This document shows, in pieces, positions 7,872-37,659 of a stretch of 64,000 bases of DNA. Below the pieces are notes generated by a model. It was not told the origin of the DNA. It worked only from the letters and a program-made list of their open reading frames with translations, and made no database searches. Source of the DNA: Candidatus Woesearchaeota archaeon (GTDB taxonomy: Archaea; Nanobdellota; Nanobdellia; Woesearchaeales; B29-G15); assembly GCA_017610005.1 (NCBI GenBank), contig JAFCCU010000001.1, positions 1 to 64,000 of the forward strand. The letters are read 5' to 3'. How positions within the stretch are numbered: the first letter of the stretch is position 1; every line of letters starts with the position of its first letter. The position numbers were made by a program, and so were the translations under genes.

Positions 7872-8222
7872 TTACAAACTTTTTTCAATCATTTCAATTC
7901 CACGAATTTGTCTATGCACTAATTTTGAGACCTTACGAAGTCTGCTTCTAATATCATCAAGCATCTCTTTTTCTTGATGTAAAATTCTATGTTCGCGGTG
8001 CATTATTTCTTTACCCTTCTTAACTCTTTCAACTTTTCTCATATGTTCAAGGGCTTGAATCTCTTTTCTTAATCGGTCTTCACGATGTTGAAAATTAAAA
8101 AATGTAGACACATCTTGAGAAACTTTTCTCTCAATATTTAGAATTTCACCATATAAATCTCTAATATGCTTCAAAGAATGATTAATCCTCTCTTCAGGAT
8201 CCTTATTGCCAAATAAACCCAT
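7872..8222 (-). CDS. Coiled-coil protein of unknown function
   Basis: Intact 116-aa ORF, charged heptad-like helices. Confidence 0.55.
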   Translation of the reverse strand: MGLFGNKDPEERINHSLKHIRDLYGEILNIERKVSQDVSTFFNFQHREDRLRKEIQALEHMRKVERVKKGKEIMHREHRILHQEKEMLDDIRSRLRKVSKLVHRQIRGIEMIEKSL

Positions 8223-8370
8223 GTATCAAAATTTGTTTTGGCATTTATAAATCCTTTGTTCTAAACGGAAAGATCCGTTTAATCAATCTAGAGGTCTCTC
8301 CTTGCTCGAGCCCCTTAATCTCTAGACTCTCTATCCCTATAAGGTTTAAGGTATATGGGAGTGTTTTTCA

Positions 8371-8573
8371 CTTCAGACTTCTAACTTCAAACTTCAGACT
8401 TCTAACTTCAGACTTCTAACTTCAAACTTCTAACTTCAAACTTCTAACTTCAAACTTCTAACTTCAGACTTCTAACTTCAGACTTCTAACTTCAGACTTC
8501 TAACTTCAAACTTCTAACTTCAAACTTCTAACTTCAGACTTCTAACTTCAAACTTCTAACTTCAGACTTCTAA
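8371..8573 (-). repeat. Heptanucleotide tandem array, 29 units
   Basis: Exact 7-nt periodicity; plus-strand units are only CTTCTAA, CTTCAGA and CTTCAAA; ends 5 nt from the cdc48 stop codon. Confidence 0.97.
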
Positions 8574-8578
8574 CTATT

Positions 8579-10870
8579 CTACCCCCAATAAGAAGGCTTC
8601 TCTTCTTCCATCTCTTTGGCTCGAGTTCTTTTAAATTCCTTTTGAATCTTCTCGTAGGCCTTTTCAATTTCTTCAGTAACAGAAGGGTGAACTATTTCCA
8701 TTGCAGCGTCAAAATGCTTCTTTAAAACTTCTTCTGCTTTAATGTTTTCACGCAAGGCTAAGATCCCCGCTTCGCGGCATAAGGCTTCAAGATCTGCACC
8801 TACAAATCCCTTAGTTTCTTTAGCTAGCTCAGTTAGGCTAATTCCTTTAAGGGGCATTTTTTCAGTGTGGATCTTTAGGATTTGTTCTCTTGATTTTTCA
8901 TCTGGACTTGGGCATAAAATTATTCTATCAAACCTTCCAGGTCTCAAAATAGCCGTATCAAGTCTGTCTGGTCGGTTTGTGGCAGCAAGTACAATAACAT
9001 CGTGAAGCTCAATCATCCCGTCCATTTCAGTAAGCATTTGATTAACAACTCTTTCAGTTACTCCAGAATCACTGGAGTTAGCCCCTCTTCGTTGAGCAAT
9101 TGAATCAATTTCATCAAAGAAGATTACGCTGGGACTTGCCTGTCTGGCTTTTTTGAAAATTTCTCTAATCCCTTTTTCGCTTTCTCCAACCCATTTGGAA
9201 ATTAATTCAGGACCTTTGACTAAAATAAAATTGGCATTGCTTTCTTTAGCAACTGCCTTAGCCATCATTGTTTTTCCAGTCCCTGGAGCCCCATAAAGTA
9301 AGATTCCTTTAGGAGGTTTAATTCCAAGCCTTGCAAATGCTTCGGGATGTTTAAATGGCCACTCAACAGCTTCTTTTAACTGTTGCTTGACATTTTCTAA
9401 TCCTCCAATCTGTTCCCAGCTAACATTGGGTTTTTCAATTAATACCTCCCTTAATGCTGAGGGTCTAACAAATTTTAATGCATTGACAAAATCGTCATGC
9501 TTTATTTGAAGCTTTTCAAGCAGTTCTTTTGGAACTGTTTCATCCTCTTTTGTCTTTATGTCAGGTAAAATTCGTCTAAGTACAATCATTGCTGTTTCTC
9601 TTGCAAGTGCCGCCAAATCTGCACCTACAAACCCATGAGTAATGTCTGCTAGGCTGTTTAAGTTAACTTCTTTAGACAAAGGCATGTTTCTTGTGTGAAT
9701 TTTTAAAATATTTAATCTGCCTTCTTTTTTTGGCACACCAATTTCAAGCTCTCTATCAAATCTGCCTGGCCTTCTAAGAGCAGGATCAAGTTGATTGGGA
9801 ATATTTGTAGCCGCAATTACAACTAATTTTCCTCTACTTTTTAACCCATCCATTAATGCCAGTAATTGAGCAACAACCCTTCTTTCAACTTCTCCTTTAC
9901 TATCTTCTCTTTTTGGAGCAATTGCATCAATCTCATCAATAAAAATAATACTTGGTGCATTTTTTTCAGCTTCTTCAAATTTCTTCCTTAAGTTTTCTTC
10001 AGATTGCCCATAATACTTGCTCATGATTTCCGGACCATTTATCACAATGAAATTTGATTGTGTTTCATTGGCAACAGCTTTAGCAAGCAAAGTTTTTCCA
10101 GTCCCTGGAGGTCCATGCAAAAGCACTCCCTTAGGTGGCTCTATTCCAAGCCTTTCGAAGAGTTCAGGATGTTTTAATGGAAGTTCAACCATCTCTCTGA
10201 TTTTTTCAATCTCATCACTAAGCCCCCCAATATCTTCATAAGATACTTCCATTATCTCTGCTTCTTCAACAACTTCAACAGCTTTTGGACTAATCTCTAG
10301 TTCTGTTGAATCTGAAATAACTACTGCTCCTTTTTTTGGTTGAACATCAACGATTACAAATTTTAGGTCTCCAAATCCAAATCCAAGCATACTATCATCC
10401 ATCATCTTAAAAATATCATTATACATAGGAATTCCAGACATTGCACTTCTCCTTCTGCCAGATCCCCCTAAACCAACAATATCTCCTTTCATTACAGCTC
10501 TTCCCAAAAGGCCTTGTTTAAAGATGGTGGGTGATGCTCTTACTCTAATATCCTTTCTTGCAGGAGCAACAATAATCTTTTTTGCAACTTCCACAACCGC
10601 TTTTTTCACAGTTACAATTTCACTAATCCCTGTTTTAGCATTTCTTCTGGTTATTCCGTCCATTCGAATTACATTTAAACCAATGTCTCCAGGATAGGCC
10701 CTATCAACTATCCCTACAGTTTCTCTTTCTCCAATAACCTGGACAATATCACCTGGAAGTAAGCCAATTTTTCTCATAAAAGAAGAATCTATTCTGACAA
10801 TTCCTTTATTAACATCATCTTGGATTGCCTCAATAACTTTTAACCGTAATTCATTAACCATGAAAACCAC
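8579..10870 (-). CDS. cdc48: CDC48/VCP-type AAA+ ATPase
   Basis: Two AAA modules ([16 protein letters not shown], two FIDEID/FFDEID Walker B motifs) and N-terminal CDC48 double-psi barrel region. Confidence 0.97.
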
Positions 10871-18907: not shown

Positions 18908-19879
18908 TTATTTAGGCCCAAAAACATCCATTAAATCAATAGTCTCTTCAGCATATTTCTTTTTTGGCTTTTCTTCAACTTCCGAGTTTTGCTCTCCAGA
19001 CTCTGAGCTTTGTTCTGTAACCTCCGGACTGCTGACTCCAGACTCTTCTGGGCTTTGAGCTACAGGCTCTTGGCTTTCAACTTCCGACTTCAAACTTCCG
19101 ACTTCAAACTGTTCTGGTTCTTCTTGGATCATTCTTTTTTCTTCGAGAGAATCATCTGGCATTAGTTCATTTAATGGTTTTTCTTCTTGAGTTATGTCAA
19201 AATCATTAACTGGTTGTGAAGGCGTTTCAATAACTGGTTTGAATTCTTCAACAGGCTCAATAGGTTGTTGTGGTGATTCATATTCTTCATAACCTTCAAA
19301 ACCAATAGGCTCCGAGCTTTGAGCTGTGGGCTCCGAGCTTTGAGCTTTGAGCTGTGAAATTGGTTCTTCAGACTTCAGACTTCTAACTTCAGACTCTTGT
19401 TGGCTTTCCTCTCCAGACTCCAGACTCCCGACTCCAGACTCCAGACTATTAACTTCCAACTGTTCTGTTTCCACAATTTGTTCAGCTTGATCCATAATAG
19501 AAGGTTCAGTTTTTACAACAGGTTCTTCTGGACTTTGAGAAGGTTCTGAAATTGGTTCTTCAGACTTCAGACTTCTAACTTCAGACTTCTCTTCTTCAGA
19601 CTCAATAAACGCTTCTTTAACAGCCAGTGTCTCCTGACTGCTGACTCCCGACTCCAGACTGTTAGACTCCAGATTTTTCTTTGAGCCTTCATAATCCTTA
19701 ATGTCTGTCTCAACCTTTTTGACGGGAGACTTTCTCTCAGGAATTTCTTCTGGCTTAGAAGCAAAGGATTGGCCGAGCATCATTTCTGCTCGTCTGATGG
19801 CTTCGTCTTGAGATGAAGCAAGACCATTTTTCTTAAGATTTTCAGCAAGTTTGATAACTTCTTCGGATACCATTGTCAA
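18908..19879 (-). CDS. Low-complexity acidic protein largely encoded by heptanucleotide repeats
   Basis: EVRSLKSEEPISE / SLESGVSS / AQSSEPTAQSSEP peptides coded by 7-nt periodic DNA; non-repetitive N- and C-termini. Confidence 0.6.
   Translation of the reverse strand: MTMVSEEVIKLAENLKKNGLASSQDEAIRRAEMMLGQSFASKPEEIPERKSPVKKVETDIKDYEGSKKNLESNSLESGVSSQETLAVKEAFIESEEEKSEVRSLKSEEPISEPSQSPEEPVVKTEPSIMDQAEQIVETEQLEVNSLESGVGSLESGEESQQESEVRSLKSEEPISQLKAQSSEPTAQSSEPIGFEGYEEYESPQQPIEPVEEFKPVIETPSQPVNDFDITQEEKPLNELMPDDSLEEKRMIQEEPEQFEVGSLKSEVESQEPVAQSPEESGVSSPEVTEQSSESGEQNSEVEEKPKKKYAEETIDLMDVFGPK
18976..19112 (-). repeat. Heptanucleotide-periodic tract inside ORF 18908-19879
   Basis: 7-nt phase, e.g. 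CTTCCGA CTTCAAA CTTCCGA CTTCAAA at 19081-19108. Confidence 0.8.
19307..19465 (-). repeat. Heptanucleotide-periodic tract inside ORF 18908-19879
   Basis: AGGCTCC GAGCTTT GAGCTGT ... AGACTTC AGACTTC TAACTTC ... TCCAGAC TCCAGAC TCCCGAC in one continuous 7-nt phase. Confidence 0.85.
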
Positions 19880-19927: not shown

Positions 19928-20473
19928 CTATTTTAGAAGTAATATCAGATCTTTACTAGAATTTATTTCATCTAGAATTTCAAATTTATCGTCAAGAAGC
20001 TTGTAAATTTTTTTAAAATTTTTAGCTCTTTTTAATATACTTATTACTTTTGTACCTTTAACAACTCTTTTTAACTCTTTTATTGCAAGTGAATAATCAT
20101 TAAAGTTATGAATTGCAGTTAATGAAATTGCACAATCAAAACAATTATCCTTAAAAGGCAAATGTTCAGCAAAACCACAGACAGTCTGAAGTCGGAAGTC
20201 GGAAGTCGGAAGTCGGAAGTCGGAAGTCGGAAGTTTGAAGTTTGAAGTTTGAAGTTTTCTTGACTCTTTGAGCATTTCAATACTGGGGTCTATTCTTATT
20301 TTTGTGCAATCAAAGTTTTTGCTGGCAATCCCGGTTCCACATCCTAAGTCTAATAGAAGATCTGTTTTTTTAACTGAAAATTTTGCTTTTATTAATTTAA
20401 TTTTTTCAAATTGTTCTTCTTCATATAATTTGTTGTAAGAACTAGCTATATTCCCATAGCCTATACTATTCAT
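19928..20473 (-). CDS. Class I SAM-dependent methyltransferase with an in-frame repeat insertion
   Basis: LLLDLGCGTGIAS, IRIDPSIEMLKES, GFAEHLPFKDNCFDCAIS; ATG at 20473 chosen; KLQTSNFKLPTSDFRLPTSDFRLQTV is repeat-encoded. Confidence 0.8.
   Translation of the reverse strand: MNSIGYGNIASSYNKLYEEEQFEKIKLIKAKFSVKKTDLLLDLGCGTGIASKNFDCTKIRIDPSIEMLKESRKLQTSNFKLPTSDFRLPTSDFRLQTVCGFAEHLPFKDNCFDCAISLTAIHNFNDYSLAIKELKRVVKGTKVISILKRAKNFKKIYKLLDDKFEILDEINSSKDLILLLK
20184..20253 (+). repeat. Heptanucleotide array, 10 units, within methyltransferase CDS
   Basis: GTCTGAA, 6x GTCGGAA, 3x GTTTGAA. Confidence 0.97.
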
Positions 20474-23400
20474 AGTCCATTGGTTGGATAATATTTTCTT
20501 CATCTTTTTCCTTTGCATAAAGCGTAGTTATCCCCTCTGTGTGATCAAATATCAATTTGTTTACTGGGCCCCTCACAGTAACCTTATTATAAGGGATTTG
20601 AGGTGTATATACTGGCATGAGTTCATATTCATAATCTTTTGAACCGCGAGCTCTAAATGTCCAACTTAGCATATCTGAATCTGAATCTTTTAAGTACCTT
20701 GTGGATCTATCATTTAAGCTTATATCAAGACCGCAGGAAGGGCAGGTTCCATTACAATCTAAATCTTCTTCATCACAGTTTGTAGTGTAATCTTCACAAT
20801 GGTTTTCAAAAAATATCCCTTCAACACAAGAGTTACTTCCAATGATGCAAAAGTTGTCCATAATCCCTTGATCTCCACAACAATCTTGTGCATCATCTGA
20901 CCAATTAAAGTCATTGCAAATTTCACAGCCTTCAAGTGAGTCTGCAGAAGTAAAACATGTTAATTCACAACTATTTGAGTAGTTATACTCTCCGTATTCT
21001 GAGAGGCCACAAAAACCAACCCCACACCCATTTGATGGGCAAGGTTTATCCACCCAAATACCATTAGAATCATATGGAGAACTTAGTTCATAATTATTAC
21101 TAACCCACACTCTTGCACTCCAATTTTCCGCTCTTACAGTTACATCATAGTCTACTCCTTCTTGCCTTTGGTTAACGCCTTCCTGATACAACTTTTCTAA
21201 TTCAGAGTCAGTAATTGCTGAATTAAAAAGTTTAACTTCATCAATCTGCCCATCTAAAAAATTACCGATAAATAGTTCTGCAGTATTTGCATCAATTACG
21301 CCAGTGTAATCTTGACTAATTACTTGTTGACCATTAATATACAAAGAGATTGCACTCCCGTTATATTTAATTGCATATTGTTTCCATTCTTCTTTACCTG
21401 TAAACTCATAATCAACTTCTTGGTCATTTACAATCCCCTTAATCTTTGATCCAATTGGAGATAATTTCATACCATAACTAGCTTCTTTATTGGCAAGGGT
21501 TGCATACTCTACTTCAGGTATTTCTTCCCCTCCTGTGCCTGAAATTGGAATCAAATAATACCCATCTTTGCTAGTTAGGTGTTCAATAAGTTTAACTCCT
21601 GGACAGGTGGGCGAAATTTCTTCGATACTTTTTGCATTTGGGCATAAAATTACGGAACCTGTTTCTGAACCGGCTGGAACATGCAATGTAAACGAGTTTG
21701 ATACTTCTGGATAGTCTGTTACATTTATAGATAGCAAAGATTTAGATTCAGCAGGATTTGAAATACCTATAATCTCTGAAAGATTAACATCTTGGTTGTA
21801 AAAATCAACTGTGAAATTAGCAATTGGATTTCCAGAATCAAGGAGCAGCACATTTTGAGGGCCATAAACTGAGTTAATTTCTAAATTTTTAGTGCGGTCT
21901 TCCATTAAAGTTAATGATAATCCTTCTGGAAGCTCTTCAATTGAATACCCTTCAGTTGAAAAATTATAAAACCGAGTTTGGAATCCCGGGTCCATCTCAC
22001 TTGACACAGTTAGCCGCCATTCATATAAATTATTTGCAATGGGGATTTCCCAGGTCACATTTGCATAAGCCCCATTTGGAACTAAGAAATCTTGATCAAT
22101 TAAATCTTCATTTTTATCATAAAATCTAACCCACATAACTTGCTCTGCAACATTTGTTATTGTGACATTTAATACTATGCTTGTAGGGGGCACTAAACTT
22201 TCTTCAATTGGATTATTAATTGTTACTCTTGTGGGTTCAGCTTCTTCTAGTGCCCCTCCATTTTCTATTTTGAATGAATAAAATCCTCCTTGTGAAACTT
22301 GATTAGTTAAGAGTTCAACATTAGCACAATTTCTTGAAACTTCTTCAAAAGTAGTTGCTTGTTTGCACAAGTAAATTGCCCCAATATCATTTCCTATTGG
22401 TACTTGCAAGGAGAAATTATCTCCTACAAATGGATAAGAAACTCTATTAAAATAAATCATGCTTTTTCCAGGTTCAGATTTAATAACTGCTTCACTTAAG
22501 TCTCTATTTGCATAAAAGGATATTGTGGTATTTCCTACTTCTGCTCCATTATAACTAAACATTACATTATGCTCTCCATAAAGATAAGTTGTTGTTGGAT
22601 CAATTATTGGACTTCCAACTAATGTTGTTGTAACAAGGTTTGGTAGGGTGCTAATTCTATAACCTTGTGTAATAAAGTTAAAAGTTTCTGAAATTACATT
22701 TTGTATAGGGTGGCTAACAATAACATACCAAGAATGAGGTGTTTTAACATCAGATAAATCCCAGTCAACACTGGCTGTCTGGCCATCACCTACATCTTCC
22801 ACATACCCGATTAATGAGCCATCGCTTGAATCATAAAAGGATACATTCCCAAAAATTGCATATCCATTTTCAACCAACACACTTAAAGAAACAACAGTGG
22901 GTGGTATGGTTTCATCACCATTAACAGGACTGAGAAGGGTGATATTAAAGATTTCTTCATTTTCTTGTTCACCATACCACTCAAAGTTGTCGATAGCTGT
23001 ATTAAAATTAGATTTAAAATAATCAGAATCTCTGGCGATACTTGAGACTCTTATTTCATCGAACAAACCAGTAACTCCATTTCCAATTTCTAATGGGATT
23101 AAATTTGCAGGGATTACACTCCCTATTAGTTTTTGATCTTTAATAATGCCGTCAAGATACAGTTTTAAGGTGTTAGCATTATAAGTTGCAGCAATGTAAT
23201 TCCATCCAGAATTAAGCTCTGTTGAGATATTTTGATTGTTGATAAATGCTACAACTTCATTACCTTTTTGTTCGAGTTGGTAAATGCTTCTACCCTTGCC
23301 AATTAGAATTTTTGGTGGAGAATTGTCTACTGTTTTTCTAACCCATACTTCTAAAGTTACTTCACCTCTCAGATTTAAACTCGCTGAAGCAGGAATTGTT

Positions 23401-26372
23401 AAAACTGAACTTATGTTTGCTGCACTGCCGATTATTCCATTTTCATAAACAGGTAATCCCCCTGCACTGTTTACGTTTCCAGAAGAGTCAGTTAAGTCTG
23501 TCTGATAATGCGAAACTAACTTAAAATTATCATTCCAAGTTAGATCTTTATTTTCTCCATAAGTGTCAGTGCAATTGTAATAAATATATATTAGATCATT
23601 TTTACTGCTTAAAATGCTTGGAACATTTACCCAAATCAAACTTTCACCACCAGGATTCCATGTAATAATTTCATGATTTAAAAATTGATTATCAAAAAAC
23701 CTAATTTCATTAATATCTGTTGCAGTATAATTAAAATCCGCATTTAGTTTAATAAGCGTAGGAAAATCACTTAGGACATTATTTCCATAATTATTAAATA
23801 TAACCCTTTCTCTAGCTTTGCAAGTTGGTGACTCCCAAATAGTTTTACCAAAAGTTGTTAAGAAACTAAATGTTTCAGATTGGTTAGTATCTCCAAATTT
23901 ATCTTTAGCTTTTGCATACCACTTGTAGATTGTACCTTTTTCTAGGCCAGTTAGGGGTAAAGAAGCAATTCCTCCACTTGCAATGTTTTTTACTTCTCCT
24001 AAAACCTCTCCAGTATATCCGTTGTAAAATGAAACATTTAAATTATCTAAATCTGGATCATTAACAGTCACACTTAAGATAGGTTCTAGAGATACCCCGT
24101 TAGCACGATTTTCAGGTGATGGATTAATTGGTTGATCTGGGAAGTTATTACATTCATACTCTTCTTTGTCAGTCCAAATATCGCAATCATTATTTTTAGT
24201 ATCATGGCAAAAGCCAATCTCATTATCTAAATTGAAGTCACCACATGAACAATCACAATTTGTACAGTCAACTGGAATTTCTGGACAAGTACAAGCTTGA
24301 CAAATTCCTATAAAGCAAGTTTGTGTACAGTCAGTTCCAAAAGTAATGTTTTCATCATCTCTACAAAAGGAATCAGGACAAGAACCCGTACCACAGGCTT
24401 CTCCCTCAAAGTAACCTTTACAAACTAAAGAATTATCTTCACAATCGTTGCAAAGCCCACAAGTTGCAATTGTTGTATTGGTATAATCCACTTGGTTACT
24501 TGCATTGCAAAAGTAGTCTCTTGTTAATATCTGAGAAACCTCCATCGCTCCTTCTGTTCCAACGCAAAATCCATCGGTATCATCTGGGTGCCACTTTGGA
24601 TCTGAATTAAGCGGAAGCCACCTGCAATTATCTGGAGAACAGCATTCATCTGCCGCATCACAGTCGCATATTTGGATGGTTTCTGACCAAACTAAAAGTC
24701 CAGCATCTTCTCCATCATTTGCATCAACAGAGACATTTACATAGTCTCCTCTGTTTAGTGCAGTTGAAGATAGAAGACTTGAACTATTTGTGCCATTAGC
24801 TTGATTTGACTTGCCTGAGGAAGCGCCATATACATCATTTATATACCATCTAAAAGTTACAAAACTTAGATCCAGGTCATCATCCCTAATAACTGACGAA
24901 GCGTTGACATCCGAATACCACCAGTATATTGTATCATTAAATGTTGGAGGCGTTACAACCGGAGGGGTATTTAACTTAGAATAATAAACAGCCACCCAAT
25001 CTAATTCTGGTGAGATTGTTCCATCTCCAAGTAACTTTAATCTGTAATAAAAGTTCTCTCCTGACCAACTAAGCCCAGATAAGTCCACACTTTCAGTTGT
25101 TCGATAGTCCCAAGAATCTGAAACTCCAGAAGAATCAACCCAATTAATTCCATCTTGTGAAAATTGAACTTCATAGAAGCTTTCTCCATCTAAAGAGGTA
25201 AAACTGGCGTCAAAAGAATCTATTGAGTCAGTTGGGGTGCCCGTAAGCAAATTTGTTGATTTAATCCTGGACGATTGAGCGATTGGATCATATCTTAAAA
25301 CTAAGGTTTCATCTGGTCTAAGCCCAACTAAATCATCCCAGCCACCATAAACAACTGTAGCATTAAGTTTTTCAACATATTCTGCACCAAACCCTCCAAA
25401 TTGCCCAACACTTTCTCCTTCTGGAAATAATTCTTCCCAAGTGTTTAAATCAGCATCATACGCCCAAACATCATCATCCCATACTGCTCCTACATCACCG
25501 TGCATAATTAAAAATTTATCTTGTTTTATATCGTAAACCATTTCGTGTTTATACCTTGCAGGAGGACTAGAAGCAGGGGTTGTTTCAACCCAACTATTAG
25601 TGGAGTAAGTATATTCCCACGTACCTGGCATTGGCGTGCTACTTGTGGTACCTCCAAATAATACACATACATCCGGATTGCAGGCAAATCCAGGATAATT
25701 TCTTGCGGGAGGTCTTAATGGTGGATTTTTGTTAGTCCAAGTATTTGTTACATAATTATATTCCCAAAGCTTATCACTCCAACCTGCATCCCCATTCCCT
25801 CCAAAAAGGAGTACCACTCCATTGGAAAATTCCATGGCGTAATCATAAAACGCCTCAGGTGGGCTGACTGGGTTTCTATTGGTCCAAGTATTAAGATCAA
25901 ACTCCCAAGTATCAGAAAGTGCACCTGGGCCTAGTCCTCCATAAAGAATAAACACTTCATTATTGGAGTCATAAACCATCTTTGCAGCTTGCCTCCCCCC
26001 AGGAGAAGTTGGAGGGAAAAGTTGGGTCCAAGTATTTGCAGTTACATTAAAAATCCAAGTTTCTCCATTATCTCCTGATCCATCCCATCCCCCAAATAAT
26101 ACTCCTATTCCCTTATCATTAAATGCAAATCCAGGATAAGACCTCATTCCTGGACTAGTTGGAGGAGTTCTGTTCCCCCATACCCATTTTCCTGGGTCTA
26201 AATTGAGGGTCATAATCCCATTGGAAACTGTAGAATTGATAATCTCTGAAATTAAATTTTGATTATCAAAAGGTTCAACAATCACATCTCCTGTTGGAGG
26301 AGTTTCTGCACTAACTAACATTGCAAAAAGAGTAAATAGGATAATTCCTACAAAAGGCAGTTTTTTATTCAA
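20466..26372 (-). CDS. Giant secreted protein with Kelch-like, DUF2341-like, LamG-like and Cys-rich modules
   Basis: Signal peptide; six FGG..W..NTW kelch-like blades; DFPTLIKLNADFNY...WVNVPS...IYIYYN; LEVWVRK...YLDG LamG-like stretch. Confidence 0.8.
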   Translation of the reverse strand: MNKKLPFVGIILFTLFAMLVSAETPPTGDVIVEPFDNQNLISEIINSTVSNGIMTLNLDPGKWVWGNRTPPTSPGMRSYPGFAFNDKGIGVLFGGWDGSGDNGETWIFNVTANTWTQLFPPTSPGGRQAAKMVYDSNNEVFILYGGLGPGALSDTWEFDLNTWTNRNPVSPPEAFYDYAMEFSNGVVLLFGGNGDAGWSDKLWEYNYVTNTWTNKNPPLRPPARNYPGFACNPDVCVLFGGTTSSTPMPGTWEYTYSTNSWVETTPASSPPARYKHEMVYDIKQDKFLIMHGDVGAVWDDDVWAYDADLNTWEELFPEGESVGQFGGFGAEYVEKLNATVVYGGWDDLVGLRPDETLVLRYDPIAQSSRIKSTNLLTGTPTDSIDSFDASFTSLDGESFYEVQFSQDGINWVDSSGVSDSWDYRTTESVDLSGLSWSGENFYYRLKLLGDGTISPELDWVAVYYSKLNTPPVVTPPTFNDTIYWWYSDVNASSVIRDDDLDLSFVTFRWYINDVYGASSGKSNQANGTNSSSLLSSTALNRGDYVNVSVDANDGEDAGLLVWSETIQICDCDAADECCSPDNCRWLPLNSDPKWHPDDTDGFCVGTEGAMEVSQILTRDYFCNASNQVDYTNTTIATCGLCNDCEDNSLVCKGYFEGEACGTGSCPDSFCRDDENITFGTDCTQTCFIGICQACTCPEIPVDCTNCDCSCGDFNLDNEIGFCHDTKNNDCDIWTDKEEYECNNFPDQPINPSPENRANGVSLEPILSVTVNDPDLDNLNVSFYNGYTGEVLGEVKNIASGGIASLPLTGLEKGTIYKWYAKAKDKFGDTNQSETFSFLTTFGKTIWESPTCKARERVIFNNYGNNVLSDFPTLIKLNADFNYTATDINEIRFFDNQFLNHEIITWNPGGESLIWVNVPSILSSKNDLIYIYYNCTDTYGENKDLTWNDNFKLVSHYQTDLTDSSGNVNSAGGLPVYENGIIGSAANISSVLTIPASASLNLRGEVTLEVWVRKTVDNSPPKILIGKGRSIYQLEQKGNEVVAFINNQNISTELNSGWNYIAATYNANTLKLYLDGIIKDQKLIGSVIPANLIPLEIGNGVTGLFDEIRVSSIARDSDYFKSNFNTAIDNFEWYGEQENEEIFNITLLSPVNGDETIPPTVVSLSVLVENGYAIFGNVSFYDSSDGSLIGYVEDVGDGQTASVDWDLSDVKTPHSWYVIVSHPIQNVISETFNFITQGYRISTLPNLVTTTLVGSPIIDPTTTYLYGEHNVMFSYNGAEVGNTTISFYANRDLSEAVIKSEPGKSMIYFNRVSYPFVGDNFSLQVPIGNDIGAIYLCKQATTFEEVSRNCANVELLTNQVSQGGFYSFKIENGGALEEAEPTRVTINNPIEESLVPPTSIVLNVTITNVAEQVMWVRFYDKNEDLIDQDFLVPNGAYANVTWEIPIANNLYEWRLTVSSEMDPGFQTRFYNFSTEGYSIEELPEGLSLTLMEDRTKNLEINSVYGPQNVLLLDSGNPIANFTVDFYNQDVNLSEIIGISNPAESKSLLSINVTDYPEVSNSFTLHVPAGSETGSVILCPNAKSIEEISPTCPGVKLIEHLTSKDGYYLIPISGTGGEEIPEVEYATLANKEASYGMKLSPIGSKIKGIVNDQEVDYEFTGKEEWKQYAIKYNGSAISLYINGQQVISQDYTGVIDANTAELFIGNFLDGQIDEVKLFNSAITDSELEKLYQEGVNQRQEGVDYDVTVRAENWSARVWVSNNYELSSPYDSNGIWVDKPCPSNGCGVGFCGLSEYGEYNYSNSCELTCFTSADSLEGCEICNDFNWSDDAQDCCGDQGIMDNFCIIGSNSCVEGIFFENHCEDYTTNCDEEDLDCNGTCPSCGLDISLNDRSTRYLKDSDSDMLSWTFRARGSKDYEYELMPVYTPQIPYNKVTVRGPVNKLIFDHTEGITTLYAKEKDEENIIQPMDYE

Positions 26373-37223: not shown

Positions 37224-37312
37224 TTATTAAATATTCTCTTATCGTGTATTAAAAAGTTTCTATTTTGCAAAACCTTTAAAAAGGGCTAGTTAATTCTTTT
37301 TCTTACTCAAAT

Positions 37313-37386
37313 GGGGCCGTGGGGTAGCTTGGCCATCCTCACTGGTTTGGGGCCAGTTGACCCCGGTTCGAATCCGGGCGGCCCCA
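37313..37386 (+). tRNA. tRNA-Pro (anticodon UGG)
   Basis: GGGGCCG/CGGCCCC acceptor, ACTGG-TTTGGGG-CCAGT anticodon arm, CCCGGTTCGAATCCGGG T-arm; TATA-like CTTTAAAAAG upstream. Confidence 0.9.
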
Positions 37387-37659
37387 TTGAGTCAGCAGTC
37401 AGCAGTCAGCAGTCAGCAGTCAGCAGTAATATATATTAAAAACACAACCTTGGCGGGTTAAGGCAAAGCCTTACACCCTCCCCGTTTGCTACTCTGCTTT
37501 ATGAAAGCAGAGGTTTGAAACAGGGCGGCCCCATTGAGTCAGCAGTCTGGAGTCAGCAGTCAGCAGTCAGCAGTAATATATATTAAAAACACAACCTTGG
37601 CGGGTTAAGGCAAAGCCTTACACCCTCCCCGTTTGCTACTCTGCTTTATGAAAGCAGAG
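37376..37659 (+). repeat. Tandem duplication with 147-nt period, starting in the tRNA-Pro 3' end
   Basis: 37376-37512 and 37523-37659 match at constant offset 147 except within one heptamer (AGTCAGC vs AGTCTGG). Confidence 0.93.

Follow-up and report, generated by a model that had tools for sequence, protein, structure and literature searches.

The 64,000-nucleotide (nt) window analyzed here, positions 1 to 64,000 of contig JAFCCU010000001.1 from a Candidatus Woesearchaeota archaeon, carries a tandem array of heptanucleotides directly behind cdc48. This gene (8579 to 10870, minus strand; stop codon at 8579 to 8581) encodes an AAA+ ATPase of 763 amino acids with a CDC48_N domain and two AAA domains, and the relatives of the protein come from Woesearchaeota. 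The array (8370 to 8575, minus strand) starts at the cdc48 stop codon and runs off away from the gene. Direct reading and unit parsing resolved it into 29 complete heptamers plus a terminal AGT, confirming the 29 units and three variants given in a preliminary description of this DNA. On the cdc48-sense strand the units are AGTTAGA (14 copies), AGTCTGA (8 copies), and AGTTTGA (7 copies), which correspond to the variants CTTCTAA, CTTCAGA, and CTTCAAA on the plus strand. They alternate: no two neighbors are identical (0/28), and 18/27 next-but-one units are, giving a 14-nt period. The heptamers are contiguous, with no spacers between them, in agreement with the earlier view that CRISPR logic does not explain them. 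The TAG stop is followed by AAT and then by the first AGT, so that the gap is 3 nt in the AGT register; the 5 nt reported before holds in the register used there.

At its far end the array meets a second, shorter one. The plus strand carries the heptamers GGTTTAA and GGTATAT (8343 to 8356), which lie tail to tail with the AGT-type array, and the two are linked by a core, AGTGAAAAACACTCCCATATACC (8350 to 8372, minus strand), that resembles type I cores and is more diverged than the core family described below. The next gene (7872 to 8222, minus strand) encodes 116 amino acids without a Pfam match, and in the congener G002 it directly follows cdc48. The space between the two genes is 356 nt here, compared with about 10 to 20 nt in G002. 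The Cdc48 C terminus aligns with that of G002 up to the last residue, and the G002 open reading frame (ORF) stops at the identical point. An insertion has parted two genes that are nearly contiguous in the congener.

A dispersed heptamer family and its absence from relatives

The genome is a Woesearchaeota metagenome-assembled genome (MAG) of 1,575,208 bp in 62 contigs, about 92% complete. Genes were called with a simple hexamer-based finder written for this analysis. Eight small contigs read as N, each adding one spurious tract per period, and N was excluded from tract counts. A genome-wide scan found 165 period-7 tracts totaling 10.2 kb, while other periods yielded from a handful to about fifteen tracts each; in the window there were 10 tracts of period 7 and 0 to 1 for the others, apart from period 14 as its multiple. 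This excess, in the window and in the genome, excludes chance as the source of the arrays, and the possibility that no tracts exist outside the window proved false. Counting arrays of three or more AGT units, we found about 167 clusters with 1,609 units, making up 0.75% of the genome, with arrays of 3 to 43 units. The dispersed family that had been proposed from the window is thus real, as are the other heptamer sites noticed there (at about 19.08, 19.37 to 19.66, 20.18, and 37.39 to 37.57 kb). The unit consensus is AGT, then C/T/A, any base, G/A, and A/G/C, close to the AGTYNGR suggested before, and AGTCTGA is the most frequent unit. A second heptamer family, GGTTTAA/GGTATAA/GGTTTGG, occupies its own outward strand. 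Most clusters (115/167) lie outside ORFs, 52 lie inside ORFs, 28 are in divergent gaps, and 91 of 1,005 intergenic gaps carry arrays. No Rfam model matched the window. As a separate observation, the 20- to 38-kb contigs C10, C21, C28, C49, and C51 have no period-7 tract, which is below the expectation from genome density; a misbinned organism, a mobile replicon, or conserved operons are possible reasons.

A trivial source of the arrays, an assembly artifact, is unlikely because they lie inside many contigs, differ in sequence, and occur in ORFs with the frame kept. Contig ends do fall close to arrays at more than the expected rate (12/108 versus about 4), which is what real repeats would cause and which likewise argues against an artifact.

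The family is confined to this genome. The AGT pattern was absent from 39 sampled relatives, including both congeners, and a longer form of the pattern was found in 1 other of 371 genomes of the phylum, as a single short tract. No period-7 tract was found in 505 kb of G002, where about 54 would be expected at the density seen here, and no AGT-type tract was found at 80 cdc48 loci of other Woesearchaeota and relatives. At nearly all comparable stop codons abutted by arrays, the C terminus lies no more than a few residues from that of the G002 orthologue; this match shows that the stops in front of the arrays are native and were not created by them. The array copies are insertions. Arrays of heptamers unlike these, of the GAAGAAC and CAAGACY types, were observed in other Woesearchaeota MAGs (L150:6709-6785 and L160:9274-9302).

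Outward polarity, inverted pairing, and cores

The head of an array is defined here as its AGT end, and an array is called outward when its AGT strand runs away from the gene. At the 3' ends of coding sequences, the head lay within about 10 nt of the stop codon in 32/41 outward arrays and in 1/35 inward arrays (Fisher P = 4e-12; the polarity rule was spotted in the same data on which it was then tested). On the 3' side of tRNA genes, all 15 of 15 arrays were outward, nine of them beginning 2 to 7 nt past the tRNA. On the 5' side of coding sequences, outward heads cluster 40 to 60 nt upstream of the start codon, where by eye they sit just behind TTTATAAA-type promoters. We considered whether the polarity could be a by-product of stop codons carried in sense arrays. 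This explanation was rejected, since tRNA 3' ends share the polarity without translation and the C termini are native. Among other heptamer contigs, with orientation judged by purine content, polarity was mixed (56 outward and 34 inward), and we therefore claim the outward rule for AGT-type arrays only.

Arrays on opposite strands are ordered as strictly. All 17 of 17 gaps with arrays on both strands show plus and then minus, i.e., tail to tail, and among array neighbors within 30 bp there were 45 tail-to-tail and 11 head-to-head cases. ORFs bearing both array strands likewise show plus before minus, indicating that the polarity is a property of the element itself and not solely an effect of selection at gene borders. 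The junctions are conserved: the core AGTGAAAAACACTATTTC occurs at 23 places with ≤3 mismatches, nearly all of them at array tails, 13/50 tail-to-tail cores are exactly 19 nt long with the consensus AGT-GAAAAACACTATTTCCTAA-ACC, and 9/13 head-to-head spacings are exactly 7 or 14 nt. Short palindromes (AAATCAAAGATTT type, 25 copies, and AAACGGATCTTTCCGTTT type) recur genome-wide in intergenic DNA beside arrays, including 8240 to 8340 of the window.

The other sites in the window illustrate arrays within ORFs and behind a tRNA gene. An acidic ORF (18908 to 19879) contains in-frame sense arrays on the minus strand at 19080 to 19110 (peptide EVGSLKSEV), 19372 to 19461 (SLESGVGSLESG...SEVRSLKS), and 19564 to 19660 (SLESGVSSQ...SEVRSLKS). 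A methyltransferase gene (19928 to 20518, minus strand) carries a plus-strand array at 20183 to 20255 that encodes a 21-residue in-frame insertion, LQTSNFKLPTSDFRLPTSDFR; the G002 orthologue has no such insertion, and about ten relatives give matches that split at the insert point. Peptides encoded by arrays in ORFs include KSEVRSLKSEV (sense) and DSRLQTPDS (antisense). These array-bearing ORFs adjoin a 1,968-amino-acid ORF (20466 to 26372) with LamG-like and kelch-like stretches, recognized by eye, which probably encodes a surface protein. Behind tRNA-Pro(TGG) (37312 to 37387, plus strand), an AGTCAGC array (37390 to 37427, plus strand) starts 2 nt past the 3' end, and a second copy (37537 to 37574, plus strand) lies in a 147-bp tandem duplication (37365 to 37659) that takes in the tRNA 3' end. 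This duplication is of a type seen elsewhere in the genome, where many tRNA genes are trailed by partial copies of their own 3' ends, often past a small hairpin such as GGAAATCTTTGATTTCC (C14:4506-4579, C19:6093-6198, C28:1469-1542, C45:21138-21259, and C52:7382-7456). The preliminary description had seen a dispersed repeat family but not its genome-wide extent, its confinement to one genome, its polarity, or its inverted pairs with conserved cores; it had also missed that arrays begin at the borders of genes, with tRNA 3' ends and the edges of promoters among them, and that some members lie in frame in ORFs, two of them in this window.

Origin of the arrays

We think it somewhat more likely than not that the array behind cdc48 represents a single copy of a dispersed noncoding inverted heptamer-array element and that this element proliferated within the lineage of the archaeon. 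The insertions, strict polarity, inverted pairing, conserved cores, and absence from relatives described above are direct observations. The element would be an inverted array pair, AGT type (AGTYNRA) on one strand and AGT or GGT type (GGTNTAA) on the other, with the first units outermost and the tails meeting at a short core. Such elements may enter DNA at many places and survive mainly where they are harmless: downstream of a stop codon or tRNA 3' end but short of the promoter that follows, or in ORFs as stop-free inserts in multiples of 21 nt. Dispersal would proceed by copying of the element, filtered by selection, and copy number would then drift in 7- and 14-nt steps through slippage or unequal exchange.

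Several results weigh against this reading. Of the features that define transposons with terminal inverted repeats and miniature inverted-repeat transposable elements (MITEs), inverted arrays are present, and target-site duplications gave no signal at the arrays (mean of 2.96, compared with 2.87 in shuffled pairs). A MITE-like conserved internal sequence exists in the form of the core at 23 loci, yet core types differ between loci and many arrays have no partner or recognizable core; given the differing core types, what we treat as one element may be several. Neither a reverse transcriptase nor a Y-family polymerase was found in the genome. Its single IS200-type Y1 transposase (C7:10234-10730) lies at a contig end with no arrays nearby and has no match in two congeners. 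A system of repetitive extragenic palindromic (REP) sequences and REP-associated tyrosine transposases (RAYTs) was considered and judged doubtful, this ordinary IS200 being the only such transposase identified.

An unlikely alternative, which nonetheless fares best among the rivals, is that each array was born independently by local polymerase slippage, with 7-nt steps preferred either because of the polymerase or because they evade mismatch repair, and that nothing moves between sites. PMC4692102 credits the idea of a polymerase-based 7-nt preference to Mrazek 2007. Heptamer excess is general among prokaryotes (PMC6344855, PMC4692102), and units differ less within arrays (1.04) than between arrays (1.38); together with the next-but-one similarity, this homogeneity means that slippage surely acts. 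Slippage as the origin, however, would leave unexplained why a single motif family spans the genome and is missing from a congener, why polarity and tail-to-tail order are strict, and why cores are conserved at a fixed length, and it would need seeds at dozens of native stop codons.

Somewhat less credible is a functional border element, in which arrays are selected as terminators, insulators, or RNA-binding sites at gene ends. The heads stand in sense at stop codons and tRNA 3' ends and point away at promoter edges, and Xanthomonas heptamers are placed similarly (PMC4692102). In addition, the sense RNA of the cdc48 array folds into a long regular hairpin (z = −5.98 versus shuffles and −3.58 versus unit-order shuffles, the strongest of 44 arrays in the latter comparison). 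Folding, though, is not a common property: the 44 long arrays had a mean z of −0.37 versus unit-order shuffles, and single-stranded DNA folds worse than shuffles. We rejected a shared RNA or DNA fold on these grounds, and an RNA role common to the family is unlikely given the lack of a folding trend. Arrays also occupy just 91 of the 1,005 gaps, the congeners do without them, many lie inside ORFs, and 28 clusters are in divergent gaps. A 3' untranslated region (UTR) role specific to cdc48 is not supported; the insertion in the cdc48 gap probably ends up in transcripts, where it would act as a passive spacer or 3' UTR.

Also doubtful, and a little more so, is the proposal that the arrays are scars of break healing, with heptamers added stepwise, in the manner of telomeres, to each DNA 3' end at the break site before the two tails were joined. 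This would account for AGT strands running outward from both borders and meeting tail to tail, for insertion without loss of coding DNA, and for the lack of target duplications, and the GGTTTAA units on the facing strand are telomere-like. Random joining, by contrast, would not be expected to give cores of fixed length and sequence, and the reverse transcriptase search was negative.

A viral contig, IMGVR_UViG_3300001528_000579 (entries L247, L248, L271, and L294), has AGTCTGA/AGTTAGA arrays at most gene ends with a polarity matching that of the archaeon, and the plus-minus order holds in its two mixed gaps. Its GC content is about 59%, and its terminase is nearest to those of human fecal and Bacteroides phages. 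A recent arrival of the arrays on phage or other mobile DNA would explain this motif shared with an unrelated Bacteroidetes-type phage contig, but we regard it as very improbable, given that host domain and GC content differ, that an exact search did not find the archaeal core in viral contigs, and that the many other heptamer sequences in other IMG/VR contigs make convergence as likely. A BLAST search of one array against phages and plasmids gave no match, probably owing to low-complexity masking. Two further IMG/VR contigs (L300 and L279), seemingly reverse complements of related sequence, bear AGTTATC/AGTTAGC arrays that start from the stop codons of same-strand genes and have AGTGAATA-type repeats behind them.

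Relation to known heptamer repeats

Cyanobacteria such as Calothrix and Anabaena carry short tandemly repeated repetitive (STRR) sequences, tandem heptamers dispersed in intergenic DNA. The archaeal arrays share this arrangement, with different unit sequences, so that the STRR-like heptamers named as precedent in the preliminary description are of the right kind. Enterobacterial REP sequences and bacterial interspersed mosaic elements are dispersed noncoding inverted pairs at gene 3' ends, built on a conserved palindrome and without tandem heptamers. The archaeal arrays are alike in being dispersed, noncoding, and inverted at gene 3' ends but consist of heptamers in place of the palindrome, and a RAYT transposase was not identified in the archaeon. 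For Calothrix, the report of heptamers is cited in PMC4692102.

According to PMC6344855, tandem heptamers are the periodic DNA most abundant between the genes of many prokaryotes, and there is "no clear clue" as to what they do. The general features of such arrays are found here: an excess of period 7 and a mainly intergenic, dispersed distribution with variable copy number. A close comparison is with Xanthomonas GGGAATC and Nostoc GGGGA(C/T)T repeats, which form 89 to 186 dispersed, mostly intergenic arrays of variable length (PMC4692102). In Xanthomonas, convergent plus/minus pairs occur in 70 to 75 cases, and the arrays lie nearer the 5' neighboring ORF and prefer the coding strand downstream of ORFs or the noncoding strand upstream (PMC4692102). 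By analogy, this placement appears to be the outward rule of the AGT arrays with an unrelated unit. The 7-nt unit, the dispersed intergenic arrays, and the convergent pairs close together near a neighboring ORF are thus common to both systems. The G-quadruplex sequence of the bacterial repeats, however, is not in the archaeal arrays, and no GGGAATC or GGGGATT pair was found in the genome. Related Xanthomonas species share most sites, whereas the archaeal congeners have none, and the conserved cores and the heads at tRNA ends seen in the archaeon are not described in PMC4692102.

TAACTGA direct repeats have a sporadic, intergenic distribution in marine Beggiatoaceae, Cyanobacteria, and Bacteroidetes; they have 2 to 6 copies in the main species, the largest class ends 1 nt from a start codon, and some overlap ORF ends or lie within ORFs (PMC4679880). 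Read on the AGT strand (TCAGTTA, a strand reading made in this analysis), most of them point away from the gene, as do the archaeal arrays. The unit itself is absent here (0 tandem pairs in the genome), and while those repeats hug start codons, the archaeal arrays pile up at stop codons, tRNA ends, and promoter edges and reach 43 units. Because outward polarity is seen in the archaeon, in the Bacteroidetes-type phage contig, and, judging by published counts, in Xanthomonas, one could speculate, as a long shot, that a single machinery makes the heptamer arrays of archaea, bacteria, and phages alike, laying 7-nt units on DNA 3' ends at gene borders and joining them tail to tail.

The arrays are an archaeal variant of a known but unexplained kind of repeat (PMC6344855, PMC4692102, PMC4679880), with an unusually clear anatomy; an incomplete literature search found no earlier report of such arrays in an archaeon. 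This genome offers a clean case: the burst is recent, dense, and specific to the lineage, and empty sites are available for comparison with its copies. Any mechanism would have to satisfy the outward polarity, the exact anchoring to stop codons and tRNA ends, the cores where tails meet, and the inserts that keep the reading frame; these constraints are testable in the culturable Xanthomonas and Nostoc. The archaeal arrays offer a starting point for explaining heptamer repeats throughout the prokaryotes.
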